IMG/VR virus record: IMGVR_UViG_3300028388_001670
Coordinates: 1 to 30,551 of that record
Direction: 5' to 3' (one strand)
Length of the DNA stretch: 30,551 nucleotides
Source of the DNA: a virus
Part shown: in pieces, positions 1,938 to 25,674 of the stretch
Layout of the letters: each line of letters opens with the position of its first letter
Position numbering within the stretch: position 1 is the first letter of the stretch
Program-made: the position numbers and the translations under genes
Notes under the pieces: model-generated
What the model saw: only the letters and a program-made list of their open reading frames with translations
What the model was told of the DNA's origin: nothing
Database searches by the model: none

Positions 1938-4850
1938 CTAGCTAAAATCTAATCCTGATTCAAATACAAGATACGACGTGCCGCCGTCGTAGGTGAGCAG
2001 CGTTAGCACGTCAATCGCATTTGCGTCAGTCGTCAATGTCGGCTCCGTGCCGCCCGCGAATTTGCAAGACGCGGGCCATGTCAGCGTCCTACTGCCTGTA
2101 CCATCCTGAATTAAAATCAATGTCATGCTGCCAGCCGTGCCGCTCGTAGGCGGATTGCTGAGCGTCAGCGTGCAATTGGCAGTCAGCGTCAGCTTGTGCA
2201 CATTGCCATTCTCGAAATCGAGCGTATGCGTCGCGCCGCTGTCGGTGTCCTCATCTACAGTTTCGCCGTAATCCGTCAGCACCGGGCGTTCAATCGTTTG
2301 ATCTGCGGCGCTTAATTGTCCGCTAAGTGTCGTTGCAGCCAGCGTCTTATTGCTGAGTGTCTGCGTATCGGTTGTGCCGACAATCGCGCCGGATGGCGGC
2401 GTTGGACCGTCCACCAGGTCGCCGTCAGCATTCCAAATGGCGAGGTCGTTGGCCGTGCCCGCCGTGCCCGTGACGACTGCGGCGTCCGCGCCGGTATAGT
2501 CCCAGGCGCTTGACGCCGTGTCAATGCTGCTATCCTCATCATAGCCAAGCACCTGCCACGCTACAAATGTATTGTAGTTCGTGCTGCCCCACCGCATAAA
2601 CACACCGTTGTCATTGGCGTAGGTGTTGCGATTGCTAACAAGCGTCATACCGTCATCGGTTAGGTACAGTCGTTGCGCCCAATCGTCCGAAGCAAGATAA
2701 ATATTATCGGTATGTGTTAGCGTGCCACCGCCCGTTAGATTGATGCCTCGCGCCGTGCTTGCTCCGGTTGCGCCCATGTCAAATGTGCAGCCCGTCACCG
2801 TTAAATTGATTGAGCTGGTAGACAGCAGAATACCGCCGGTTTGGACCCAAGAGATCGTGCAATTTGTTACCGATGTTGTGCCAACCGAATCAAAAACAAC
2901 AGCCTGATTGTCTGCGTCGCTACGTGCGGTAATCGTGCAATCGGACACGCTACCCGCGTCGCGCACGCGCACGCCTCGATTAACATCAGTTAATATGCAA
3001 TACGACACAGTTAGCCCGCTATGCTCGCTTGGATCAATAGCCAATTCGATATTGTCTGCATATATTCGCGAGGCTTCGACATCGCCAAACGTGCCACTGC
3101 CCGTATGTGCAAAAAATCCCACCGCATTGCTATCGTAGGTTGTCAAACTTAAGTAGCAGTCACGTACCGTTAAATCGCCACCGCCAGCAGAAACAGCATA
3201 AATTACTAGCATCGTGAATGATTCGTTTATGTACGCCTCGACTATGTCGCAATCCAATACCGTGCTGGCATCGCCCGTAAAGACGTTGTGCTTGCTACCG
3301 AATTCACATTTGCAATGCCGAATCGTGCTGGTGTCATATAATTTAATCGAGCCGTCCTGGTGCGACTGTAATCGACTGTGTACGCCATCTGCTGTAACGC
3401 CGGTGTCATTGATCGACTTTACCGTTACACCGTGCAGGTATCGACTATATCTATAAGTGCTGCCGTTGCTGGTTGGGTCGGTGCTGCCAGTCGGATGGGT
3501 GTAGACTGTCACCGTTGTATCACCACTGCCTGTATCGACGCTAACCGTAAAACTTCCGGCGGTGCTGTCGCACGTTGCCACGTCGGCTACTCGTGTCATA
3601 TGCGCGCCATCCTCTAGCACATTGACAAATGAGTTGGAGCTATGCAATTCAATCGTTACGTCTTGTTCATATACGTTGGTTTGCCCCGCCGTCGCCGACC
3701 ATGAGCCGCTTGTAAATGTCACGCCGCAATCAATGATCGGCTTTGCTCCGCTGCCATAGCGGTACACGCCACCATTACTATCTAGCGTTACGGTGCCGGT
3801 GTAGGTTTCTCCACTGGCCAGCGCCACCACATCGCCATCATTAAGCGTTGGCAGGTCGTCCAATGCATCGAACGGCGTAGCCAATGAGCCGTCGCCACCC
3901 GCAGCCGCGCTCGCGTCCACGTAATAATCAGGTGCAACAACCGTATATGCGGCAAAGCTATCTGCCTTCGGCGGCGCTACAACAATTTTCCCGCTGTTAA
4001 CGTGTGATGCCGTGAAATATTGTAGCTCGTTCGGCTCAGCTGGATACTCCACGCCGTCGATATGCCCATCACTCCCATCCGGCCACGTCACAGTGGCCGT
4101 GATGCTAATATAGCCATGATTGCTACTATTACTGCGGTCAGTGCGTGTGATGCTGCTCATGTACGCACTGATATTAGACGCCCACGCTTTGAGCGTGCCA
4201 TCCGGCAAATTGACGCCTTCCAATTCTAGCGTCACCTTGGCGGCGTCTGCATCCGCATCGTCTACCAGCGTTGCGCCAAACGCGCTGATACCGTGCGTTT
4301 CCGTTAGCGCCGCGTGCGTGGCAATGTCGGCGTCGATGGCGCTGTCAGTGTAGGCCTTGATGCTTTGCTGTGTAGCCAAATCGGTCGCGCTATCGGATGA
4401 CATATCATCCTCATCTAGCACGCCATAGCCGCTATCCACCGTCTGCCCGCTGGCAAACTTGGCCAGATTGTCATTGGTGGCGTCGGTGTCTTTGTCCTGT
4501 TTGGCAGCCAGCAGCGTCTCCAGGCTGTTCGGCGTCTCGGTCGTCAACTCGGCAGCCAGCCAATCGGCGAGACCCAGGCTAGCAGCATCGTAGGCGAGCG
4601 TTGCTTGCACGCGCTTACCGTCTGGCAGCTCGATACGCCATGCCCACGCCGCGTCCCCCGTCGCGTCCGGGGTGGGGAGGTCGATGGTACCTTCTCCATT
4701 TTCATCAAGCGACATCGTGTACGTTAGGAGTGGAAACGTTTCTACGCCGCTAATCGCCACCGATGACAGTAGCGTAAATTCGACATCCTGACTGACGTAA
4801 TCCGGCAGATCTGCCGTTACCGTTCGTGTGTTGGTTGCGTTGCTGCTCAT
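1938..4850 (-). CDS. Tail spike/fibre with right-handed beta-helix
   Basis: This is a 970-residue candidate receptor-binding protein. Residues 1 to about 120 look like a virion-attachment region. From about residue 305 the sequence YYVDASAAAGGDGSLATPFDAL matches the entry of pectate-lyase-like parallel beta-helices, followed to about residue 770 by short imperfect coils (VSYCILTDVNRGVRVRDAG, VTNCTISWV, VTGCTFDM). Near 829-837 TQTLSNKTL is a motif typical of phage fibre proteins, and a beta-rich C-terminal domain follows. The family may bind or depolymerise surface polysaccharide; no catalytic residues can be assigned by eye. It is encoded after small membrane-protein genes and before a small protein and a LamG-like protein. 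Confidence 0.75.
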   Translation of the reverse strand: MSSNATNTRTVTADLPDYVSQDVEFTLLSSVAISGVETFPLLTYTMSLDENGEGTIDLPTPDATGDAAWAWRIELPDGKRVQATLAYDAASLGLADWLAAELTTETPNSLETLLAAKQDKDTDATNDNLAKFASGQTVDSGYGVLDEDDMSSDSATDLATQQSIKAYTDSAIDADIATHAALTETHGISAFGATLVDDADADAAKVTLELEGVNLPDGTLKAWASNISAYMSSITRTDRSNSSNHGYISITATVTWPDGSDGHIDGVEYPAEPNELQYFTASHVNSGKIVVAPPKADSFAAYTVVAPDYYVDASAAAGGDGSLATPFDALDDLPTLNDGDVVALASGETYTGTVTLDSNGGVYRYGSGAKPIIDCGVTFTSGSWSATAGQTNVYEQDVTIELHSSNSFVNVLEDGAHMTRVADVATCDSTAGSFTVSVDTGSGDTTVTVYTHPTGSTDPTSNGSTYRYSRYLHGVTVKSINDTGVTADGVHSRLQSHQDGSIKLYDTSTIRHCKCEFGSKHNVFTGDASTVLDCDIVEAYINESFTMLVIYAVSAGGGDLTVRDCYLSLTTYDSNAVGFFAHTGSGTFGDVEASRIYADNIELAIDPSEHSGLTVSYCILTDVNRGVRVRDAGSVSDCTITARSDADNQAVVFDSVGTTSVTNCTISWVQTGGILLSTSSINLTVTGCTFDMGATGASTARGINLTGGGTLTHTDNIYLASDDWAQRLYLTDDGMTLVSNRNTYANDNGVFMRWGSTNYNTFVAWQVLGYDEDSSIDTASSAWDYTGADAAVVTGTAGTANDLAIWNADGDLVDGPTPPSGAIVGTTDTQTLSNKTLAATTLSGQLSAADQTIERPVLTDYGETVDEDTDSGATHTLDFENGNVHKLTLTANCTLTLSNPPTSGTAGSMTLILIQDGTGSRTLTWPASCKFAGGTEPTLTTDANAIDVLTLLTYDGGTSYLVFESGLDFS

Positions 4851-6061: not shown

Positions 6062-6215
6062 ACTGCACCTGCTCTGCAGGTATCCCCTTCTCTTTGCCGA
6101 CCGGTTGTAGCGATTGCAGCGCGTTGATTAGGTCGTTGACCTCACGCCACGGCTGATTAGCCAGATAATTTACAAGCGCCTGCAGTACGCGCTCATTGAT
6201 ATAAAATTCTTTCAT
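6039..6215 (-). CDS. 58-residue small protein
   Basis: ATG 6215 overlaps the stop of the upstream gene (TAATG), and the 3' end overlaps the next gene by 23 nt. The product starts MKEFYINERVLQALVNYLAN and reads as one or two amphipathic helices (WREVNDLINALQSL). Tight coupling on both sides supports expression. The family is unknown. Confidence 0.55.
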   Translation of the reverse strand: MKEFYINERVLQALVNYLANQPWREVNDLINALQSLQPVGKEKGIPAEQVQYDVNRGA

Positions 6216-6445
6216 TATGCCGCCTCGCTAATTGTGATTGCCGTGTACGTCAAGTCATCCTCTTCAAGCAACCGCTGCCCCCGGTTAATGATGCGTTGGA
6301 TTTCCGCCAGCAGTTTACCGCTAACATATTCCGCCAGCGTCCCGCTATCATCGGCAGGGCGGCTGAAATAGCGAGCGATTGCGTCACGTGCGTCGCTCAG
6401 GTCGGTCTCGTCAATCTCCAGGTCAATCAGTGTCACGTTCGCCAT
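6215..6445 (-). CDS. 76-residue protein after tail-tip gene
   Basis: The product is acidic and helical (MANVTLIDLEIDETDLSDAR, then LLAEIQRIINRGQRLLEEDD). A strong AAGGAG lies about 6 nt before the ATG, inside the 3' end of the large tail gene, which it overlaps by 23 nt. No family is recognised. Conserved small proteins in this position are often tail accessory or chaperone proteins, which is inference only. Confidence 0.55.
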   Translation of the reverse strand: MANVTLIDLEIDETDLSDARDAIARYFSRPADDSGTLAEYVSGKLLAEIQRIINRGQRLLEEDDLTYTAITISEAA

Positions 6446-8972
6446 TGCGTAACTCCTTTTCTAGCTGTGCGATGCGCCGGTGTAGCTGCCAGATTGCGCC
6501 ATTGTGCAGGCGTTGTAGTTGCGTTGTGTTGATCATACGCCCGTCGCTACCCAGGATGCGCGCCGCGATTAAATCCTCTTGATTGTATTGCACGAACTTA
6601 TCGAACTCGCTTGCTATTGCTCCCCCGGTGGACAGGTCGAGTGCCCGCGCCAGCGCTACATCATCATATGCGTCATAGGTGTTCTGCGTGCCATCAATGT
6701 ATACGTCGCCATTGCCCTTCAGAATCCACTTTGTCGCGCTGTTGTTGGCCATGACAACAATATTATCATCCGTGCCCCACGAGGTGATACCTGTGCCGTT
6801 CTTTTTGTGCGTATTTAAGCGAATCGTGCCTAAATCCGACGTAGTTTCGCCCGTGGATGCGCTGACCGCAAATCCGCTCAATTGCGCGCCAACCGTGCCC
6901 TCGGACAAGCCGCGAATCAATACGCCACCGTCTGCGCCGGTCGTTTTGCAAAAAGTCGAGTAAACATCCGTATCTGCGATGGTGGTAATGCCGTGCGCGA
7001 CGTCAGACGAGATTAGTTCGATAATGTTGCCGTCGTTTGCGCTTTGATTTATCGTAAGCCCCTCACCGGCGCGTATTTCAACATCGGCAGGTGATACGAT
7101 AGTCACATTGTCCCCGGTATCTAATTCGATTGATGCTTGAGCTGTACCCGCTTGCGCAAGTAAGGTTACTCTCGAATCATTTCCAGATGGTGATATTGCG
7201 GTAACGTCAGCGCGACTATCTACGCTGGTTGTTGATTCAGTCCTTAAGGCTGTCCTATGGATTGTTGGCGAGCCTGAATCGTCAATGTATGCGCCCAAAA
7301 ACCCCAGGCGGGCGGTAGAAGTACCGAGGTCTGCTTCAGGATACCACCATACACCAGGCAGATTCGAAGCCGAATTTCTAACGGCTATATTGACATTCGG
7401 CGACTGCCCTCCGCTGGACGTTGCCGGCCCCGCGCCAAGCGTTGTAGCAACTGTACCGTTTGTCGCTAGTGCGCCAGCCAATACATCATTGCCGCTATTG
7501 CGTCGCGCTAGTTGCTCACCGAGAATGAGGCGCGTGCGTCGCACATTATCGTCACCCACGAAATGCTCGTAATCCGTGATGTATAGCCCCGTCTTGTCCA
7601 GATCAAGCCATTCATCCTCATATTCAAGCGCGACGGTCTGGCCCGGTCTTACATTTTTATGCAGCACACACACTACCTCATAGTAGCGTAGCTTTTCATT
7701 GCGTGCTTCCATCCAATTGACTGCCGTTTCTAACAGTAGATTAGCCGCTGTAATCGCATCGGCGTCAGTCGTGCCACCCGGTCGAATCCATGGAAATGTG
7801 ACAACCACCTCGCGCTGATTGGGACTAAATTCAGTCGCCAGTGAATCTTTAACCAGCAAACTCCTGCTACCTACACCTCTTGTCAGCGTATAGCCTGCGG
7901 GTGCGCTGTCTGTCGCCCGGTACAATGTCAACCGCTGACCACCTGAACCGCCACCATATGGAGTAACGTGGCTCACCCGCTCATCTCGGTATTCGCGCCG
8001 GATACTTTCAATGATGCCGTATGACGTGCTGCCAAATCGCGCCGCAAAATTCGCCTGCGTCGGCATCACCAGCGTGATACCGGTGCTGTCCGACGAAGAG
8101 CGCCACTCGATTTCTCGCAATGGCGCGACATTGCCCGCGCTGCGCTGCTTCATTCGCCAGTATTCGCCGGATGCATTGGCTGCCGCATTAAGTAATGCCA
8201 GCGTGCTACTACCATCTCCCAGGTGACTTGTGCCGTTAGTGGTGCCGTTACCACCGCCCTCGACCGTCAGCGCCCAATCTCCCGTCACGGTAGGGCGGGT
8301 CATTATTTTTGTGATGTCACTGGTAGTAGGCGTGCTGTAATCTGTTACTTGCACGTCAACCTCGGTGACGTCTGGTATGGCATTGTATAGCGGCGGTGTA
8401 ACTTCAATGTAATCACCACCTACGGTATCCACCTCGCCAATGTAAATCGGGAAAATGTCCCACCGGATAATGAAAATAGACGCACCTGTGCTAAATGCGG
8501 CGATGTCCCCGGCAGCAATGGCAATGCGCGTTGTGCCGACGGGGTAGGTGCCCGTCGTGTTGATTGATATACCTTGTTCGGTGTCCTGGTCACCAATGTC
8601 CTGCCACACGAGCCACTGCGTCAACTCGTGGCTCACCTCCGGCCCGCTGATTTTCAGTAGCGGCACATTTTCCACAACCTCGACATGGATGTCTTTGATG
8701 ATAAAGCACGCCACCTCCGCCTGGTAACTGCCTATCTGGTCCTGCTGGTAGACGCTGGCGTAATGGCCTACCTGAATAAGCGGGTATGTGTTGTCGTTCG
8801 GCGGTATGTAAAACTCGCCATGTCCAACCTGCATTAGCCCGCTGCCGCCGCGTGCGTACAACACCTCGACAAATGACACGCCGGTGGACGTGGACAGCGT
8901 GCCACCATTATCATAGAGCAGGTCGCCGTCAGCATTATAAAATGATGCGAAACAGGTTCCGTAGTTAGCCAT
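6423..8972 (-). CDS. Large tail-tip/baseplate and fibre-like protein
   Basis: The 849-residue product follows the tape measure and a small distal-tail gene, the usual place for the tail-associated hub (gp37-like, Tal). Residues 1 to about 480 are mixed alpha/beta with features typical of hub proteins (VALEYEDEWLDLDKTGLYIT, then TRLILGEQLARR). From about 500 it becomes a beta-rich, Ser/Thr/Gly-rich fibre. The C-terminus, from about 800, switches to helix (LIAARILGSDGRMINTTQLQ, then HNGAIWQLHRRIAQLEKEL), which looks like a trimeric coiled-coil end. I see no peptidase S74 catalytic motif. A hub fused to a fibre is the simplest reading. Confidence 0.65.
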   Translation of the reverse strand: MANYGTCFASFYNADGDLLYDNGGTLSTSTGVSFVEVLYARGGSGLMQVGHGEFYIPPNDNTYPLIQVGHYASVYQQDQIGSYQAEVACFIIKDIHVEVVENVPLLKISGPEVSHELTQWLVWQDIGDQDTEQGISINTTGTYPVGTTRIAIAAGDIAAFSTGASIFIIRWDIFPIYIGEVDTVGGDYIEVTPPLYNAIPDVTEVDVQVTDYSTPTTSDITKIMTRPTVTGDWALTVEGGGNGTTNGTSHLGDGSSTLALLNAAANASGEYWRMKQRSAGNVAPLREIEWRSSSDSTGITLVMPTQANFAARFGSTSYGIIESIRREYRDERVSHVTPYGGGSGGQRLTLYRATDSAPAGYTLTRGVGSRSLLVKDSLATEFSPNQREVVVTFPWIRPGGTTDADAITAANLLLETAVNWMEARNEKLRYYEVVCVLHKNVRPGQTVALEYEDEWLDLDKTGLYITDYEHFVGDDNVRRTRLILGEQLARRNSGNDVLAGALATNGTVATTLGAGPATSSGGQSPNVNIAVRNSASNLPGVWWYPEADLGTSTARLGFLGAYIDDSGSPTIHRTALRTESTTSVDSRADVTAISPSGNDSRVTLLAQAGTAQASIELDTGDNVTIVSPADVEIRAGEGLTINQSANDGNIIELISSDVAHGITTIADTDVYSTFCKTTGADGGVLIRGLSEGTVGAQLSGFAVSASTGETTSDLGTIRLNTHKKNGTGITSWGTDDNIVVMANNSATKWILKGNGDVYIDGTQNTYDAYDDVALARALDLSTGGAIASEFDKFVQYNQEDLIAARILGSDGRMINTTQLQRLHNGAIWQLHRRIAQLEKELRNGERDTD

Positions 8973-12193: not shown

Positions 12194-12594
12194 TATTCTG
12201 TTCCTTGCACCTGGGCCACGACCGCCCAATACACCGAGCCGCCCACGGCCACACCGTCGCCGCGCAGCGTGTACTCAATCAGCGGCATTACGGTCAGCGT
12301 GTCGAGTGCCGTCTCGACTGCATCCATCATGGCAATCGTGTCACTCATGTTCTGCTCGCTCGTTTCCTGGTTAAGCGGTTCCAAGCACACAACTAGCTCA
12401 CACGTTCGCACCGCGCCGGTATTGTCGCACTGGCTCGCCAGAGTAGGGAGGTTCGTGCGTCCCTGCGGCAAACGGATAAACGATGCCGGCAAGTCAGCGG
12501 TGCCGAGACTGTCCGGTGCGTAGGTGTAGGCCCGCGTCACGTTGGAGATGGTCAAGCCACTGATCGCGGCGGTGAATGCTGCGTATGTCGTCAT
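12193..12594 (-). CDS. Tail terminator/completion-like protein
   Basis: The 133-residue product starts MTTYAAFTAAISGLTISNVT and ends VYWAVVAQVQGTE, with a central VRTCELVVCLEPL strand pair. Size and gene order (connector, this gene, tail tube) match tail terminator or completion proteins of HK97/lambda-like phages (gpU or minor tail type). The start forms an ATGA overlap with the connector gene. The assignment rests on synteny more than on motifs. Confidence 0.5.
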   Translation of the reverse strand: MTTYAAFTAAISGLTISNVTRAYTYAPDSLGTADLPASFIRLPQGRTNLPTLASQCDNTGAVRTCELVVCLEPLNQETSEQNMSDTIAMMDAVETALDTLTVMPLIEYTLRGDGVAVGGSVYWAVVAQVQGTE

Positions 12595-13157
12595 AGTCTG
12601 CGATACGGTCCCAAAATGCTTTTGACGTCCGCCGGCATGGCTGGCGTGCGAATGACGGTACCCGCCTCAATCGCGGTGACGTCTGCCAATTGGCTGTCCT
12701 TCTGACGATAGTAGAATGCCGCCAGCCGGATGCACGCCTGCCTCACATCATTCGGCGCTTGCGTGCTATAGCCCCACTTGCCACTAATTTCGATGGCGTC
12801 CATCCACTCGTCGCCATACTCCCACAGCGTGTCTGAATCTGACAGCAGGCGTATGGCATAGTATGGCGTATCGTTGCGCGGTAGGGTCGTGTACTTGCTG
12901 CTAGCAATGGCGTTGCCGTCGCCGTTTGTGACGCTGTTCACCTCGCACAAGTCATCATCAAGGTACAGCACGCCATCTTTGATGTGCTCACCTATTGCAT
13001 CATAGTAGCGCGTGCTGTTGCTTGTCACCTCAAACACGCGGTTCGTGTGCGTCTCAATCGCCGCCTGCGCTGCACGGATGAGGCCATTGATTAGCGTATC
13101 GTCGCCTGAGCCGCTAATGCCGAGATAGTCTTTTACGTCGTCATCCGTCGCGTACAT
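12591..13157 (-). CDS. Head-tail connector (HK97 gp6-like)
   Basis: The 188-residue product begins MYATDDDVKDYLGISGSGDD followed by LINGLIRAAQAAIETHTNRV, the characteristic N-terminal helices of gp6/gp15-type adaptor proteins. Later there are DAIEISGKWGY and APNDVRQACIRLAAFYYRQ, also typical of the family. These proteins form the ring under the portal. It overlaps the upstream gene by 17 nt and lies where this family is expected, between capsid and tail genes. Confidence 0.8.
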   Translation of the reverse strand: MYATDDDVKDYLGISGSGDDTLINGLIRAAQAAIETHTNRVFEVTSNSTRYYDAIGEHIKDGVLYLDDDLCEVNSVTNGDGNAIASSKYTTLPRNDTPYYAIRLLSDSDTLWEYGDEWMDAIEISGKWGYSTQAPNDVRQACIRLAAFYYRQKDSQLADVTAIEAGTVIRTPAMPADVKSILGPYRRL

Positions 13158-13404
13158 TGGCTAATTCCTTGCGTAGCCTGTCGGCGCTTTGGTTGGCTCG
13201 TATGCCGTGCTCCTGCGCCAACGCCTGAAGTTCGCGATAGCTCATTGCGTCCAGGTGGCGAGTAGGTGCCGTATCCGCTACCGGCTCGACAAAGCCATTA
13301 CGGATCAGGTCGGGTAGGTTGCCGCGCCGCCGCTGCTCATCTATGTCGTCGGCGGTCATCGTCTGCCCCGGCTGATAAAAGTCGAACGCTCTAAGCACCT
13401 TCAT
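13141..13404 (-). CDS. Small head-region protein with SAP/HeH-like C-terminus
   Basis: The 87-residue product starts MKVLRAFDFYQPGQTMTADD, resembling short head-region proteins that sit beside gp6-like connectors. It ends with a helix-extension-helix pattern, MSYRELQALAQEHGIRANQS followed by ADRLRKEL, similar to SAP/HeH modules that bind DNA or protein. ATG 13404 has GAGG upstream and lies inside the last codons of the sulfotransferase gene; a longer frame from 13461 is not preferred. Function is inferred only from position. Confidence 0.6.
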   Translation of the reverse strand: MKVLRAFDFYQPGQTMTADDIDEQRRRGNLPDLIRNGFVEPVADTAPTRHLDAMSYRELQALAQEHGIRANQSADRLRKELANVRDG

Positions 13405-14200
13405 ACCCGATTGCCTCATTTGCCGCTTGTGCACCGCTATCACGCCACACTGCGGCGACATTATCTGTCCAGTATTCGCGCCATTCGCCGGTAGTGCCGC
13501 GCCGATAGGTGACTAGCTTCTGCGTCTGGCTTGCCTCTACCATGCTGGCCACAATTGCGTCATGCTGTGCCCGGTCAATCCTCATATGACGGCCCCAAAA
13601 GGCGGCGGTCTGCCCGGCTACGTATCGCAATATCAGCGAAGCCGTTTCTTCACGATTGCATAGCAAATTTTCATACCGCAGCGGTAGCGTCCATTTCTCG
13701 TCAAGCCAATCACGATACAGCGCCCATCGCTCTGCCAGCCCCGGCCATTTGCCCAATCCGTCGATGATGCCAATCAAGACATCCTCAAACGTAGCGAGCG
13801 CCTGATACTGTGCCTTGCCAGGATGTTTGAGACGGTCGCTGTCATCCTTATCTTTGCTCGTATCCAGTACGTGATGCGCCGCACTTACGGCCACATCGCG
13901 CAGATCACGATACACGAAAAGCACGCATACGCACCCGTCCCAAAGCGCCTCGCATATATCAGGATGCCGGCCACAATGACCCTTTAGATACGCGCCTTCT
14001 GGCCATTTGCCGGCAAGTTCCTGGTAACGCTGGATGTTTACCCATTGCGTGGTCCAGGCGTTACCCTCAAACGAGCCAAGCCACGGTCTATCCGTCCACG
14101 GTGCGGCAATCTGGCGTAAGTACGTCTCCGCCAGATGCGTGCCGGCTTTAGGAAAAGAGGCCAGATAAACGCGAGGAGACAACGCGCCTCTGGCCTCCAT
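13391..14200 (-). CDS. PAPS-dependent sulfotransferase
   Basis: The 269-residue product carries the full signature of P-loop sulfotransferases. The 5'-phosphosulfate loop is near residues 14-22 (ASFPKAGTH, with K18). YLKGH at 71-75 fits the family's catalytic histidine H75. The 3'-phosphate site is at 96-106 (VYRDLRDVAVS, with R98 and S106), and RRGTTGEW at 233-240 is the C-terminal PAPS loop. Such enzymes move sulfate from PAPS to a hydroxyl or amine; the acceptor here is unknown. The gene lies between a decoration-like gene and connector genes, 16 nt after the former. I chose ATG 14200; an in-frame start at 14341 would overlap the upstream gene heavily. All key motifs are present, so it should be active. 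Confidence 0.85.
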   Translation of the reverse strand: MEARGALSPRVYLASFPKAGTHLAETYLRQIAAPWTDRPWLGSFEGNAWTTQWVNIQRYQELAGKWPEGAYLKGHCGRHPDICEALWDGCVCVLFVYRDLRDVAVSAAHHVLDTSKDKDDSDRLKHPGKAQYQALATFEDVLIGIIDGLGKWPGLAERWALYRDWLDEKWTLPLRYENLLCNREETASLILRYVAGQTAAFWGRHMRIDRAQHDAIVASMVEASQTQKLVTYRRGTTGEWREYWTDNVAAVWRDSGAQAANEAIGYEGA

Positions 14201-14216: not shown

Positions 14217-14639
14217 TTATCCGTTGATGATTTCTGCAACGGTGGCGAGATCGTGCTCATTGGCCGGGTTATAGCGACGTTTGGCAAGCGCGACGACGGC
14301 GACTTCACTGTTTGCCGTGCCTTGCTCCAACACGCCCGCAACGTACCGATGGCCGCTTGTCAAGCTGTCAGCGCGTACACCGACAACGACTTGCTTATCG
14401 TCATCGCTGGCCGTTAGCTGCGTGATGGCCGTAACGCTGGTCGTGATGGTGGCAGTAGCATCGCCAGAATTGACGGTAAAGTCAACCGTGCCGGTGGCAG
14501 CGACGGTCTCAGTCATGATGATAAAGACGACCTCATGGACCTCTTTCATGTCAATTGTGTCGGTCGTGCTGGTGCCGGTGGCGTCGCCCGTCGGGTCAAT
14601 GGTTGCAACGATGGCCCATTCTTCACTAAATCTGTGCAT
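14217..14639 (-). CDS. Head decoration-like protein
   Basis: The 140-residue, Thr/Val/Asp-rich beta protein lies 27 nt downstream of the capsid gene with a good GAGAGGT ribosome-binding site. Strands such as VHEVVFIIMTETVAATGTVD and ATITTSVTAITQL suggest a compact beta sandwich. Genes in this position commonly encode capsid decoration or head-fibre proteins. No diagnostic motif was recognised, so the call is positional. Confidence 0.5.
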   Translation of the reverse strand: MHRFSEEWAIVATIDPTGDATGTSTTDTIDMKEVHEVVFIIMTETVAATGTVDFTVNSGDATATITTSVTAITQLTASDDDKQVVVGVRADSLTSGHRYVAGVLEQGTANSEVAVVALAKRRYNPANEHDLATVAEIING

Positions 14640-14666: not shown

Positions 14667-15863
14667 TTAGTCGTTGTGATAGACAAACGGGCTAACCGTG
14701 TAGCTGCCCTGCGGGTCTGCCAGCGTGATTGTCGATTTCAGCCACGGCATACCGTCCCAACGGCCATAAAAGCGCCAGGTGCCCATGTCGTTGGTGAACT
14801 TGGCGTGTTCGCTGAATGCAATCTCTAGGCCCTGCCGCTCAAACAGCAGGTAAGCGCCCAGGTCTGCTAAGATCACGTCGCCGGCGTTGTCATCCTGCGG
14901 GCTGTGCTCGCTGAAGACGATCTGATAGCCGAGCAACGAGCCTTGCATCACCTGACGCCACTCAACCAGGTCGGCGCCTGAGCTGGTGAAATCCTTAAAG
15001 TCGGGTAGAACGCCACGATGCATAATCCACACCGGCTCGCTCTGGAATCGCTTAAAGCGTGCCAACATGCCGAGCGCGTCTGCCTCACCGAATGCATTAT
15101 CGGCAGCCGTAGTAACAGCTACTGCAGCGGTCGAGTTGAGGATGCCGAGCGGCTGCCCCGCACCCGTGCCCCGCAAGATATAAAACTCTAGCTTGCTATT
15201 GATTGCAATGCGGAACAAGCTACTCAGCAGCGCCTCGATTGACTGCGGTGAATCCGCAATCAGTTCGTTGCTCACCTCGGTATACCCGCCGACCTTGTAC
15301 ACGCGCCATGCCAACTGCTCAAACGTCGCCTGCGTTTCAGTCAGCGCCCCGGCCTCAGCCGTTTGTGTGCTGGTGACGCCGCCGCTCATGGCAGTTTCGC
15401 CACCGCCCGCAGTGGGGGCAGCGAATACATCAAGCGCCGGATAGTACCCGCTCGGCAGGTTGACCGGAATGCGATTGACGCGGCTCACGATGGGTGAGGT
15501 TTCTGGACTGAATTGCAGCAACTGATTGGCGTACTCCTCAGGCACCAGGTAGCCACCCTGCCCACCGGCACCTTCTAGCATGTCCTTGGTCGCTCCGTAC
15601 ACGCTTGCCAGCCGGCGCACGTTGCCGCGCTTGACAGCCAGCAAATAATCACCAAATGATTTCACACCGTTGGGCTGCTCATCATCTGGCGCAACATAAC
15701 CACCGTCTTTCAATGGTGCGCTATTTTCCACACGCTCCAACAGCGCCGCCACCGCATCATTCAAGGAATTGATACCCTTGAGCTGCTCGGTCACGTCGCC
15801 CTGAAACGCTTTGAATTCATCACGGCTGATATGCTCAACCGCTTCGGGCTTTTGTTCACTCAT
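14667..15863 (-). CDS. Internal start: scaffold-capsid form without protease
   Basis: Inside the fusion gene, ATG 15863 (residue 187, MSEQKPEAVEH) is preceded by AGAGGA with about 8 nt spacing, a ribosome-binding site as good as those of true genes here. Initiation would give a 398-residue scaffold plus capsid protein lacking protease, so that capsid can outnumber protease. This parallels nested genes such as lambda C/Nu3, though there it is the scaffold that is made internally. Confidence 0.55.
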   Translation of the reverse strand: MSEQKPEAVEHISRDEFKAFQGDVTEQLKGINSLNDAVAALLERVENSAPLKDGGYVAPDDEQPNGVKSFGDYLLAVKRGNVRRLASVYGATKDMLEGAGGQGGYLVPEEYANQLLQFSPETSPIVSRVNRIPVNLPSGYYPALDVFAAPTAGGGETAMSGGVTSTQTAEAGALTETQATFEQLAWRVYKVGGYTEVSNELIADSPQSIEALLSSLFRIAINSKLEFYILRGTGAGQPLGILNSTAAVAVTTAADNAFGEADALGMLARFKRFQSEPVWIMHRGVLPDFKDFTSSGADLVEWRQVMQGSLLGYQIVFSEHSPQDDNAGDVILADLGAYLLFERQGLEIAFSEHAKFTNDMGTWRFYGRWDGMPWLKSTITLADPQGSYTVSPFVYHND

Positions 15864-16421
15864 TTCATTTTCCTCTCTACTATGATTAATTTCCTCAGCG
15901 GCTTTTTCCTCGCCGACGCTCTCTGTAGCGTCCTTTGGCAATAAATCAGCCATTGCCGGATGTTCGTTTATCAACGCCTTGAGCCGCTGCACACCAATGG
16001 TGCGCGGTTCAGCAGGCGTCGCGGTTAAGCTAAATTCGACGATAGGCCACGACTTAATAACGCCGCCCTCTCGCCGCGTCAGGTGTGCAACGCTGCCAGA
16101 TGACAGGCCTAGCGCGCCAGCCTCAACCAGTTTGAGCACCTCGCTTACGTAGGCCTCGTGCTTTTGCAATTCCGCCTCAATCCACAGGCCGGCCTCTCGC
16201 GGGTCAATCGCCTTGACGATGCCGAGTCGCTTTGCCCCGATTTTATCATTGTAGCTGTGGTCATACAGCAGCGGCTTGTGAGGCACCAAGCCCAGGTCAT
16301 AATCGGTTTCTGGCGTAAACGTCTCGCCTTCCAAATCATGACCGCCAAATACGACGCCATAGCCGCCAATAGTGGCGCTGTCATCATCCTCATGCAGTAT
16401 TTTGATTGCGAATTGATCCAT
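14667..16421 (-). CDS. HK97-type prohead protease fused to major capsid protein
   Basis: This is a single 584-residue frame. Residues 1 to about 150 are an HK97-like prohead protease: MDQFAIKILH, then GYGVVFGGHDLEGETF, the YDHS motif near H55, and GLSSGS near S107, which correspond to the family's His and Ser. A charged linker and scaffold-like delta region (about 150-250) follows. An HK97-fold capsid from about 255 contains GGQGGYLVPEEYANQLLQ and SPIVSRVNRIPV and ends SPFVYHND. The start at 16421 has AGGTG just upstream; a GTG six nt earlier is less likely. Protease-capsid fusions are known, and self-cleavage would release mature capsid. An internal start is listed separately. Confidence 0.88.
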   Translation of the reverse strand: MDQFAIKILHEDDDSATIGGYGVVFGGHDLEGETFTPETDYDLGLVPHKPLLYDHSYNDKIGAKRLGIVKAIDPREAGLWIEAELQKHEAYVSEVLKLVEAGALGLSSGSVAHLTRREGGVIKSWPIVEFSLTATPAEPRTIGVQRLKALINEHPAMADLLPKDATESVGEEKAAEEINHSREENEMSEQKPEAVEHISRDEFKAFQGDVTEQLKGINSLNDAVAALLERVENSAPLKDGGYVAPDDEQPNGVKSFGDYLLAVKRGNVRRLASVYGATKDMLEGAGGQGGYLVPEEYANQLLQFSPETSPIVSRVNRIPVNLPSGYYPALDVFAAPTAGGGETAMSGGVTSTQTAEAGALTETQATFEQLAWRVYKVGGYTEVSNELIADSPQSIEALLSSLFRIAINSKLEFYILRGTGAGQPLGILNSTAAVAVTTAADNAFGEADALGMLARFKRFQSEPVWIMHRGVLPDFKDFTSSGADLVEWRQVMQGSLLGYQIVFSEHSPQDDNAGDVILADLGAYLLFERQGLEIAFSEHAKFTNDMGTWRFYGRWDGMPWLKSTITLADPQGSYTVSPFVYHND

Positions 16422-16435
16422 AATCACCTACCAAC

Positions 16436-16479
16436 AAAAAACGGCAATGCGCGCCCGGTCGGGTCTTATCGCATTGCCG
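16436..16479 (-). terminator. Terminator-like hairpin in the capsid leader (attenuator candidate)
   Basis: On the minus strand CGGCAATGCG (16470-16479) pairs perfectly with CGCATTGCCG (16442-16451) around an 18-nt loop that holds a second CCCG/CGGG stem. Six T residues follow immediately (16436-16441). This is a canonical intrinsic terminator. It lies only about 15 nt before the capsid ATG at 16421 and downstream of a good promoter. Confidence 0.75.
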
Positions 16480-16534
16480 CTTCTCTCAATTAGAAGCCTC
16501 TGGCAATTGCAGAAGCATGTATTTAATTGTAATT

Positions 16535-16563
16535 ATTCTATCATGCGCTCTATGCCACGTCAA
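16535..16563 (-). promoter_or_regulatory. Sigma70-type promoter for the capsid operon
   Basis: Minus-strand -35 TTGACG (16558-16563), 17-bp spacer, and -10 TAGAAT (16535-16540) preceded by TGA, making an extended -10. Transcription would start near 16528, leaving a leader of roughly 105 nt before the capsid ATG. Within the leader a ten-codon frame (16486-16518, MLLQLPEASN) precedes the terminator hairpin, but it has no Shine-Dalgarno. Confidence 0.65.
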
Positions 16564-16726
16564 TCAAGCCGATGCGCCGGCAGAAGCGCCACAGCAGCCA
16601 TGCCTCATATGCCAGCGTGCCACGCAGCGGATATACCCCGGCACTGGCTGCCTCTACGATTTCACCGATACGGTGCCGGGGTATGCTCGTCTCCGCTTCG
16701 ATGTTCGCTACGATGTCGTCAAGCAC
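16550..16726 (-). CDS. Possible 58-residue protein upstream of the capsid promoter
   Basis: A minus-strand frame starting at GTG 16726 and ending at TAG 16550 gives LDDIVANIEAETSIPRHRIG, EIVEAASAGVYPLRGTLAYE and AWLLWRFCRRIGLIDVA. The residue make-up is very protein-like, and codon choice matches neighbouring genes better than the overlapping plus-strand frame does. There is no clear ribosome-binding site, and the start codon could differ. It reads in the same direction as the late genes, and its stop codon abuts the capsid promoter. Confidence 0.45.
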   Translation of the reverse strand: MLDDIVANIEAETSIPRHRIGEIVEAASAGVYPLRGTLAYEAWLLWRFCRRIGLIDVA

Positions 16727-16734
16727 AAATGGTA

Positions 16735-16740
16735 TATAAT
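16735..16740 (+). promoter_or_regulatory. Possible -10 box for the plus-strand cassette
   Basis: A perfect TATAAT lies about 60 nt before the first gene of the plus-strand unit, but no convincing -35 is found at 15-19 bp upstream. The sequence upstream also contains a 12-bp inverted repeat (16633-16644 with 16673-16684), which falls within the possible minus-strand gene. Confidence 0.3.
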
Positions 16741-16801
16741 GCAGGAAATAGAGTTAGCCAGAATCCTTCGTCTCAGACAGATATTATTTAGGAGAAATCT
16801 A

Positions 16802-17065
16802 ATGAAGAAAGTATTGCAAGAAGTTGGAAAACGGCAAAACGATTTAGAAAAATTTATTCGTCAATATGCAGAGAAAAATGACATTCTGCCCACAATACAG
16901 TGGATTGTTAAAGAGGCGCGGGCGGGGCGAGATTGGAAGTCTGGCAAATTGGCTTACGAGGCCATGTACCGAGAGGAGGTGATCGAGCCAGCCACGAAAT
17001 TATTTGAAGAAATGAACCCCAGTTCAATCGCAACTGGGGCGCAATTAGACATGGTAATATTTTAA
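16802..17065 (+). CDS. Plus-strand cassette gene 1, helical protein
   Basis: The 87-residue product starts MKKVLQEVGKRQNDLEKFIR, continues with WIVKEARAGRDWKSGKLAYE and ends GAQLDMVIF. It is almost entirely helical and charged. TAGGAG at 16789-16794 gives a strong start at 16802. The same frame is open back to 16517, but that part overlaps opposite-strand signals and lacks a ribosome-binding site. No family is recognised. The gene runs against the surrounding late genes and is coupled to the next one. Confidence 0.65.
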   Translation: MKKVLQEVGKRQNDLEKFIRQYAEKNDILPTIQWIVKEARAGRDWKSGKLAYEAMYREEVIEPATKLFEEMNPSSIATGAQLDMVIF

Positions 17066-17181
17066 TGAGTAAATCATCAATTCGCAATGCCCGCGCACGC
17101 CGGGCATTGCGAATTATCAGGGCATTAGCAATTCGTAATGTAGGAAATAGAGATAAGCAGCCGCAAGGCAAAGGAGATTAA
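17065..17181 (+). CDS. 38-residue arginine-rich peptide
   Basis: ATG 17065 overlaps the previous stop (TAATGA), and the last codons hold the AAAGGAG ribosome-binding site of the following gene, so the three genes are tightly coupled. The product begins MSKSSIRNARARRALRIIRA and continues LAIRNVGNRDKQPQGKGD, a very basic amphipathic helix that could bind RNA or DNA. A perfect 15-bp inverted repeat lies inside the coding sequence. Confidence 0.5.
   Translation: MSKSSIRNARARRALRIIRALAIRNVGNRDKQPQGKGD
17079..17115. repeat. Perfect 15-bp inverted repeat within a coding region
   Basis: AATTCGCAATGCCCG (17079-17093) is followed by a 7-nt loop and then its exact complement CGGGCATTGCGAATT (17101-17115). 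A degenerate third copy, GGGCATTAGCAATTCG, follows at about 17120-17135. There is no T-tract, so it is not an intrinsic terminator. A DNA-binding site or a stable mRNA hairpin is possible. The cores GCAATGC and GCATTGC also occur in the capsid-leader hairpin. Confidence 0.7.
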
Positions 17182-17182
17182 A

Positions 17183-17386
17183 ATGAAAGACCAAGAATGG
17201 ACAGAGGAAATGGAAAACAAGTACCAGCAAAAACTAGCAGCGTACCGTAGTAGCTTGCCGCCAATGGAAAAATTCGATCCTGAAACATGGAATGAAAGGA
17301 AAAAAATAGGGCAAAAGTTCTTTGATGAGTTAACCCCCATTGAAAAACTGCGCCACAGTGTACAAAGAGAAGCGATTATACTTTGA
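17183..17386 (+). CDS. Plus-strand cassette gene 3, charged helical protein
   Basis: The 67-residue product starts MKDQEWTEEMENKYQQKLAA and includes KFDPETWNERKKIGQKFFDE. It is Lys/Glu-rich and helical. AAAGGAG lies about 6 nt upstream of the ATG. Codon use is more A-rich than the surrounding late genes, which fits a separately acquired cassette. No family is recognised. Confidence 0.65.
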   Translation: MKDQEWTEEMENKYQQKLAAYRSSLPPMEKFDPETWNERKKIGQKFFDELTPIEKLRHSVQREAIIL

Positions 17387-17418
17387 ACACAATATCCCCA
17401 CCCGCGCCCTTTGGGGAA

Positions 17419-17462
17419 AATCGCCAAAGCGTCAAAGACGGCGGGGCAGAATCGCTAAAGCG
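17419..17462. repeat. Paired operator-like direct repeats before the RHH-like gene
   Basis: AATCGCCAAAGCG (17419-17431) and AATCGCTAAAGCG (17450-17462) match at 12 of 13 positions and begin 31 bp apart, close to three helical turns. Each contains CGC and GCG arms. They lie just upstream of the ribosome-binding site of a ribbon-helix-helix-like gene, so autoregulation is a natural hypothesis. Confidence 0.5.
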
Positions 17463-17474
17463 ATGAGGTAAACA

Positions 17475-17687
17475 ATGGACCTTGACAAATTTTTTGAAGC
17501 CGTCGCCATCCAAGAGGACACGGAACAATTCTTGTTCCGCCTAACGCCGGCCGAGCGGGCGGCATTGGGCAAGTTGGCGTCAACATACAAGATGCCGATG
17601 GCGCAGGTGCTAAAGCGCCTGCTGCGTCAAGCAGTTGTAGATTACTACCAAGACAATGAGGTCTGGGGCCTCATCAAGTATCAATAA
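17475..17687 (+). CDS. Ribbon-helix-helix-like small regulator
   Basis: The 70-residue product contains a likely short beta strand followed by two helices: FLFRLTPAERAALGKLASTY, then KMPMAQVLKRLLRQAVVDYY. This matches the CopG/Arc-type pattern of strand, helix 1, turn and helix 2, a DNA-binding dimer. GAGGT precedes ATG 17475. It is the last gene of the plus-strand unit, directly before an intrinsic terminator, with a pair of operator-like repeats just upstream. Residues 1-18 are an acidic extension. An antitoxin role is possible, but the neighbouring small genes are not recognisable toxins. Confidence 0.6.
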   Translation: MDLDKFFEAVAIQEDTEQFLFRLTPAERAALGKLASTYKMPMAQVLKRLLRQAVVDYYQDNEVWGLIKYQ

Positions 17688-17692
17688 CCCCA

Positions 17693-17717
17693 GGGCGGCT
17701 AACCACCGCCCTTTTTT
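17693..17717 (+). terminator. Rho-independent terminator of the plus-strand cassette
   Basis: GGGCGG (17693-17698), a 7-nt loop, CCGCCC (17706-17711), then six T residues (17712-17717). It ends the plus-strand unit and overlaps the 3' end of the converging gp10-like gene by two bases. It lacks a T-tract on the other strand, so leftward transcription should pass. Confidence 0.85.
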
Positions 17718-24761: not shown

Positions 24762-24956
24762 TCAAGCCGTCAGCGCATCCGCCAGCTTGTATCCGTTAGT
24801 TGTCACGGTCACGCCGGCAATGGTCGGGCGCTTGGTGCGCACGTGTACCAGCGTGCCATTAAACACGAGCGGGCGCATCCGCTTACGCGCCGTTTTGACC
24901 GACACGCCAAGCAGCGTCGCGATTTCCTCGGTTGTGAGCGCTTCGCTGTCGTACAC
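24762..24956 (-). CDS. Small helix-turn-helix DNA-binding protein
   Basis: The 64-residue product contains SEALTTEEIATLLGVSVKTA followed by RKRMRPLV, a standard HTH (TEEIATLLGVSVKTARKRM). Further on are strands (LVHVRTKRPTIAGVTVTTNG) like the wing of a winged helix. The start is GTG 24956 with no clear ribosome-binding site, and a TGA lies ten codons upstream in this frame. It overlaps the end of the disrupted phosphoesterase frame, so it could once have been fused to it. It is followed at once by the endolysin promoter. Confidence 0.6.
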   Translation of the reverse strand: MYDSEALTTEEIATLLGVSVKTARKRMRPLVFNGTLVHVRTKRPTIAGVTVTTNGYKLADALTA

Positions 24957-25674
24957 ATCACGCGCATCAGTAGTGGTTCATTCTCCTGTACAGGCCATTC
25001 CCAATACAATTTTTTGACTACGTAGCTTCCATTACGACAAATTACGTATGCTCCTCCAATTGGCAACCAGTCGCCACCGAGCCTATGCCCAAATGATGTA
25101 CTCAGTTGCCAGGACGGTGTGATAATCGCCCGCGTCGCCGGATGATTGTCATACGAATCCACCGGCTTGTGATTGTGACCGCGCAGCACCAGTTGAGGCG
25201 GTTGCAGCGGCTGCGCTCGATTGACGTAGCGATCAATAATCTGCGCTGCCAAACGGCCGGCATCCGCCCCTCGCGTCCAGGGACGGCCGTGTCCATGGCC
25301 AGGATGATGCGCCGCGTCGATGCGTACCCCCCCTATCACGCCGCGAAACCCCCACCACGAAGAGCGCCCGTCTGGTGCCGCCAGTGCGCCGATGTCGTGC
25401 GCTATCACCTCGTCAAGTGATGCGCTCTGCCGCGAGTGCGCCTCCGTACCCCGCGTGACGATGTAATGGTCAGCCACGTCATGCGCCGGCGACCCGTCTC
25501 GGTCTTAACCCGCTTTATTTCCTGCCAGTACTCAATCCATTTACGCCATATCCACCGCTGCGGCGCACTGGCGCGATAGGTGCCGCCATCGTCCAGCGTC
25601 ACCGCCGGGTAACACAGCGCAACGGTGCTGTTGATGTGCAGGTCGCCCGTGGCGACTAAAATCGCTTCAGTCAT
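24809..25674 (-). pseudogene. Frame-disrupted metallophosphoesterase
   Basis: The first part (25674 to about 25495) encodes MTEAILVATGDLHINSTVAL with the D-x-H metal motif at D11/H13, then QRWIWRKWIEYWQEIKRVKT. After that the homologous sequence continues in another frame from about 25505 (DGSPAHDVADHYIVTRG), through RGHNHKP, the C-terminal GHxH metal motif, to NGSYVVKKLYWEWP. The expected central NGD motif is missing at the junction, so a small deletion or frameshift is likely. The second frame also runs on past its natural end into the HTH gene. It may be a real pseudogene or a sequence error. ATG 25674 overlaps the previous stop (ATGA). Confidence 0.65.

Follow-up and report, generated by a model that had tools for sequence, protein, structure and literature searches.

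What might a sulfate-transferring enzyme do among the genes that build a phage head? The question is raised by a virus record from IMG/VR with a length of 30,551 bases, hereafter the window, for which a preliminary description proposed a PAPS sulfotransferase gene inside the head gene operon. We addressed it by examining the gene and its surroundings, the identity of its product, the distribution of its relatives in phages and cells, and the genes with which these relatives are associated.

Genetic Context of the Sulfotransferase Gene

The sulfotransferase gene occupies positions 13391..14200, as first described, and lies on the minus strand, where a frame of 269 codons plus a stop is open; the plus strand is interrupted by stops over the same interval. 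On the minus strand, the genes for the terminase, the portal, a Mu F-like head protein, a neck protein, and a fused protease/capsid protein are followed by a decoration-like gene, the sulfotransferase gene, a small gene, a connector gene, and then tail genes. The fused protein (14667..16427, minus strand) matches major capsid proteins of the HK97 fold (PF05065, E = 8e-44; phrog_10), with protease PHROGs matching its N-terminal part. Directly upstream of the sulfotransferase gene, with 16 bp between its end and the start codon, is the decoration-like gene (14217..14639, minus strand), recognized by its position and by phrog_28483, annotated as "unknown function." On the other side, a small gene encoding a Rho_N-like C-terminus (13141..13404, minus strand), whose start is most likely at 13404, overlaps the end of the sulfotransferase gene by 14 bp, and the head–tail connector (Ad1) gene (12591..13157, minus strand; PF05135, phrog_442) forms the downstream border of the slot. 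PHROGs and Pfam assignments bear out the head-operon placement, between a decoration-like and a connector gene, and the coordinates bear out the tight spacing on either side that had been noticed from the sequence.

By consensus scan, a promoter-like site (16535..16563, minus strand) is found upstream of the capsid gene and a terminator-like site (16516–16496, minus strand) just ahead of it. The same scan revealed no promoter-like site or terminator on the minus strand from the start of the capsid gene to the end of the sulfotransferase gene, nor in the sulfotransferase flanks between the capsid and connector genes. As the sulfotransferase gene is tightly spaced and apparently lacks a separate promoter or terminator, and as the nearest upstream promoter-like site precedes the capsid gene, it is predicted to be part of the capsid transcript and to be expressed with the capsid. 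Its GC content (0.563) is the same as that of the capsid and decoration genes. Classical morons have their own promoter and terminator and a foreign composition, neither of which characterizes the window gene; it shares with them presence or absence between close relatives, being absent from the related record L002.

Several other regions of the window deserve mention. Between the capsid and neck genes (16428–17715), about 1.2 kb is of lower GC content (down to 41%) and includes a plus-strand ORF of 182 aa (16517–17065) with no Pfam or PHROG match. Two overlapping frames (24809–25477 and 25405–25674) appear by eye to be one split metallophosphoesterase, a relative of which is encoded just upstream of a sulfotransferase gene in L191 (6795–7622). 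Possible tail-end adhesins are a protein of 970 aa that contains a beta-helix region (1938–4850) and a laminin-G-like protein encoded near it (957–1586).

Identity of the Enzyme

Residues 10–250 of the window protein match Pfam PF00685 (Sulfotransfer_1; E = 4.5e-7, 30 bits for a cut-off of 22). It matched nothing in PHROGs, NCBIfam, or single-sequence PDB searches and is therefore a divergent member. Profiles of its relatives match solved sulfotransferases with E-values down to 7.7e-19 for a profile rich in cellular sequences and 1.2e-15 for the phage profile; no P-loop family other than the sulfotransferases was matched. An AlphaFold2 model (pLDDT 83, pTM 0.85) was compared with the PDB, and all 50 matches listed, with TM of about 0.5–0.6, are structures of the PAPS sulfotransferase family, among them SULT7A1 (5x2b) and SULT1A1. 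The identity proposed in the preliminary description is therefore upheld: judging from motifs, profiles, and predicted fold, the protein almost certainly belongs to the PAPS sulfotransferase family.

All the motif positions named at the outset are found in the sequence. The 5'-phosphosulfate-binding loop YLASFPKAGTHLA (residues 12–24; 14129..14167, minus strand) contains K18 within SFPKAGTH, and K18 is present in 41/41 covered phage rows of the alignment. The catalytic histidine H75 (13976..13978, minus strand) is conserved in 42/42 covered rows. The 3'-phosphate-binding motif RDLRDVAVS, from R98 to S106 (13883..13909, minus strand; YRDLRDVAVS with the preceding residue), keeps both end residues in 43/43 rows, and the C-terminal PAPS motif RRGTTGEW, from R233 to W240 (13481..13504, minus strand), keeps R233 in 43/43 and W240 in 42/42 covered rows. 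These six residues are thus retained in every covered row among the 43 other phage-clade rows, as well as in almost all cellular relatives; the PAPS loop residues, whose loss in all relatives would have spoken against the assignment, are kept.

The window protein shares with the cytosolic-type enzymes of PF00685 the fold, the 5'-phosphosulfate-binding loop, the catalytic histidine, the 3'-phosphate-binding motif, and the RxGxxGxW motif. Unlike them, it carries the phage-clade loop W40-LGSFEGNA-W49 (14054..14083, minus strand), together with H110 and R158-W159, and is encoded in a capsid operon. In the alignments, most phage members retain W40 and W49, whereas the cellular relatives do not.

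A Phage Clade Linked to the Capsid Gene

Single-sequence searches of viral contigs, genome contigs, and INPHARED retrieved no relative of the window sulfotransferase, and relatives in phages were recovered by profile scans only. A first scan of IMG/VR yielded sulfotransferases on phage contigs with 30–42% identity to that of the window, and rescanning with these sequences brought the total up to 56 loci. After removal of near-duplicates and more distant members, 43 records, including the window, were kept. When cellular and plasmid sequences were placed in one tree with them, by a quick method and with a midpoint root, 44 phage rows, the window among them, formed one group (SH-aLRT 93) whose signatures in the alignment include H110, R158-W159, and the W40/W49 loop. 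The clade members tested had no match in PHROGs, and the four members compared with 50,697 INPHARED phage records had none there. One record, L196, encodes two clade sulfotransferases in a single head module (2704–3744 and 6188–7066). The low-scoring matches L181–L186 and L235 were set aside as other sulfotransferases with no recognized head genes within their flanks.

The preliminary description had suggested surveying related phages for the same gene position, and the position proves common to many divergent phages. Neighbors were called with profiles that were built from the head genes of the window and iterated. Of the 43 records, 28 (the window and 27 others) have a major capsid gene upstream of the sulfotransferase, in the same orientation and no more than 6 kb away, and nine more have another morphogenesis or packaging gene (head or tail genes) within 8 kb. 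In the remaining six, several of which are cut by contig ends, no such gene was recognized. Among the 18 contigs longer than 20 kb, capsid linkage was observed in 11 for 1.6 expected, with a tail probability of roughly 3e-8, in an approximate calculation that assumes a uniform distribution of gene positions. Decoration-protein relatives precede the sulfotransferase in eight records: the full order capsid–decoration–sulfotransferase–connector is also that of L171, L176, and L210, where some neighboring genes are separated by a few bases, and the window order up to the sulfotransferase is found in L173, L174, L197, L219, and L221.

Pairwise distances of the sulfotransferases and of the capsid proteins are correlated (Mantel r = 0.65, 0/5000 permutations), indicating that the two genes have largely been inherited together, though not in every case. 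The sulfotransferases of the window and L188 are 42% identical and their capsid proteins 13%, indicating that horizontal transfer also occurs. L002, the closest record by capsid (48%), has 46 bp between its decoration and connector genes and no sulfotransferase, which shows that the enzyme is dispensable.

Genes Sharing the Slot and the Candidate Acceptors

In the phages carrying a sulfotransferase, the slot between the capsid and connector genes also holds repeat-containing fibre-like proteins. Several of these phages encode there, in addition, a GT2 enzyme (L225), a GNT-I-like enzyme (L215), a sialyltransferase-like protein (L187, phrog_4603), or a methyltransferase (L209). A further slot family, in L194, L195, and L198, has no Pfam match; its model (pLDDT 86) resembles GT-A glycosyltransferases, including collagen galactosyltransferase, STIV A197, and Mimivirus R699, so that protein glycosyltransferases and viral enzymes are both among the top fold matches. 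This GT-A-like head-slot family, found in L195, L198, L194, L022, L092, and L223, partly matches phrog_1574 ("unknown function"), and in L022 and L092 it occurs in relatives without the sulfotransferase. Head-slot glycosyltransferases were counted in 8/27 records with and 2/16 without the sulfotransferase, which, with biased seeds, does not amount to a clear association. In the slot of the window phage, no glycosyltransferase was recognized. Two genes of L002 (309–1259 and 6493–7698) belong to a family that is represented in the head slots of L209, L216, and L218 as well; this family has no Pfam match and possibly transfers sugars, and L002 itself has no sulfotransferase.

The candidate acceptors in the window are the decoration-like protein and the fused capsid protein. 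Tyrosine had been offered as an example of a sulfated virion residue, which the decoration-protein alignment does not support: among sulfotransferase-carrying phages, no tyrosine is conserved. L002 has Phe and His where the window decoration protein has Tyr, and many carriers of the enzyme likewise lack these tyrosines, leading us to reject a conserved acceptor tyrosine in this protein. The gene context of the relatives points more to glycans than to tyrosine as the acceptor.

Proposed Sulfation of the Virion

We give about an even chance to a late sulfation of the virion, on a glycan or protein of the head, decoration, or fibre. A cytosolic PAPS-dependent sulfotransferase would be made late in infection alongside the capsid proteins and would draw its PAPS from the host. 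The acceptor would belong to the virion and would most probably be a sugar or a hydroxyl group of the decoration protein, a head fibre, or the capsid, so that the released particles would be sulfated and negatively charged at their surface. In several relatives, glycosyltransferases encoded in the same slot could place the sugar to be sulfated. Since none was recognized in the slot of the window phage, sulfate would there be received by a protein side chain or by a glycan that the host makes. The broader proposition, that tailed phages spanning lineages build sulfated virions by means of a dedicated capsid-operon sulfotransferase, some with glycosyltransferases and fibre-like proteins, which would place the sulfate on the surface of the head, is put forward more tentatively, at somewhat less than even chances.

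The computed support comprises the enzyme family, its motifs and fold, the position in the capsid transcript, and the conservation of this position in a phage-specific clade. Counted against virion sulfation are the dispensability of the gene in L002, the horizontal transfer seen between the window and L188, the lack of a conserved acceptor tyrosine, the slot glycosyltransferases occurring without a sulfotransferase, and the surface-polysaccharide context of the cellular relatives.

Host, Cellular Relatives, and Alternative Roles

Terminase relatives in assembled genomes are mostly from Chloroflexota, the best being from Anaerolineae (62%), and the host is probably a Chloroflexota bacterium. 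Most of the Chloroflexota genomes reached through the terminase carry several PF00685 genes, which makes a host supply of PAPS plausible. The window protein matched 32/396 Anaerolineae genomes at about 30% identity, and the phage profile matched the same family in 21/400 Chloroflexota genomes, with E-values down to 8.5e-47. No integrated phage copy was recognized in these 396 and 400 genomes, the matches being a chromosomal capsule-cluster family and more distant cellular sulfotransferases. The nearest cellular relatives found, in a search by profile or tblastn of Chloroflexota chromosomes and plasmids that leaves room for closer ones elsewhere, are sulfotransferases of Anaerolineae capsule and nonulosonate clusters (L123–L143 and L236–L247), with 25–29% full-length identity. 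Unlike the window gene, they are chromosomal, lie in glycan clusters where examined, and are mostly devoid of the phage-clade signatures.

In the Anaerolineae clusters examined, the sulfotransferase gene is beside NeuB, cytidylyltransferase, Capsule_synth, glycosyltransferase, or mannosyltransferase genes, and the plasmid relatives in Priestia sit among glycosyltransferase genes. By this context, the Anaerolineae enzymes would act in surface-polysaccharide clusters, which would also fit, for the phage enzyme, a late sulfation of a host surface glycan such as a capsule, a nonulosonic acid polymer, or a teichoic-like polymer. Phage-encoded O-antigen modifiers mask receptors likewise. Masking of receptors would let progeny avoid re-adsorbing to debris or infected cells, and the head operon would be merely a convenient site for late expression, in a slot that tolerates insertions and losses. 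However, such a modifier needs neither coupling to the capsid over deep divergence nor a shared phylogeny, the promoter and terminator of classical morons were not found, and no membrane glycan machinery was recognized beside the gene in the window. We therefore rate a host-surface role as the second possibility, a rather unlikely one, and, because of the position of the gene, its co-inheritance with the capsid, and the slot mates, give most weight to virion sulfation.

Sulfation of a small molecule or a defence signal, for counter-defence or detoxification, seems improbable. Small phenols and steroids are frequent substrates of SULT-fold enzymes, and the best PDB matches are enzymes of this kind, but the PDB is biased toward mammalian SULTs, the closest sequence relatives are in polysaccharide gene clusters, and the late head-operon position and tight capsid linkage do not suit such a substrate. 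The absence of the gene from L002 and the lack of any sulfotransferase match in 50 TerL-related records, many of them fragments, had raised the idea of a one-off insertion, abandoned once the clade appeared. The same absences would fit a chance passenger without selected function, a role made very improbable by catalytic residues that do not vary among the roughly 43 divergent clade members and by the conserved position. A contribution to hypermodification of phage DNA bases, although sulfation has been mentioned in phage nucleotide modification (PMC10829341), is the least credible role, as the gene lies in the head operon, away from replication genes, and no base-modification genes were recognized near it in the window.

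Comparison with Known Phage Systems

Sulfotransferases are already known in phages, where their role has been described as unclear (PMC10580990). Synechococcus phages S-SRM01 and S-SCSM1 and OM43 phages share the PAPS sulfotransferase fold with the clade described here; the S-SCSM1 protein came up as a BFVD match, and the OM43 proteins, assigned to PF13469, resemble that of S-SRM01 (PMC10580990). Unlike in our clade, no linkage of these genes to a capsid module was reported in the literature searched. The genes annotated as PAPS sulfotransferases in Psychrobacter phage Y8A and phage CSP3 encode in fact CysH-type PAPS reductases, a different family. Neither a capsid-linked sulfotransferase family nor a sulfated phage virion was described in the literature searched, which covered few subscription journals. 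A parallel is virion glycosylation, which is established in mycobacteriophages: phage-encoded transferases of Che8, Corndog, and Myrna modify capsid or tail proteins and produce a glycan shield (PMC12363180, PMC11256854). There, the group transferred is a sugar instead of sulfate, and the hosts and enzymes differ; in the present system the modification is a prediction from the genes.

Among the auxiliary metabolic genes listed for phage genomes, sulfotransferases have so far had no clear function. A phage-specific clade tied to the capsid genes turns this into a testable hypothesis, namely that phages sulfate their particles or what these particles display. If this is true, sulfate would join glycosylation as a surface chemistry of virions, their adsorption, aggregation, stability, and recognition would be affected, and phage enzymes would be on offer for sulfating proteins or glycans.
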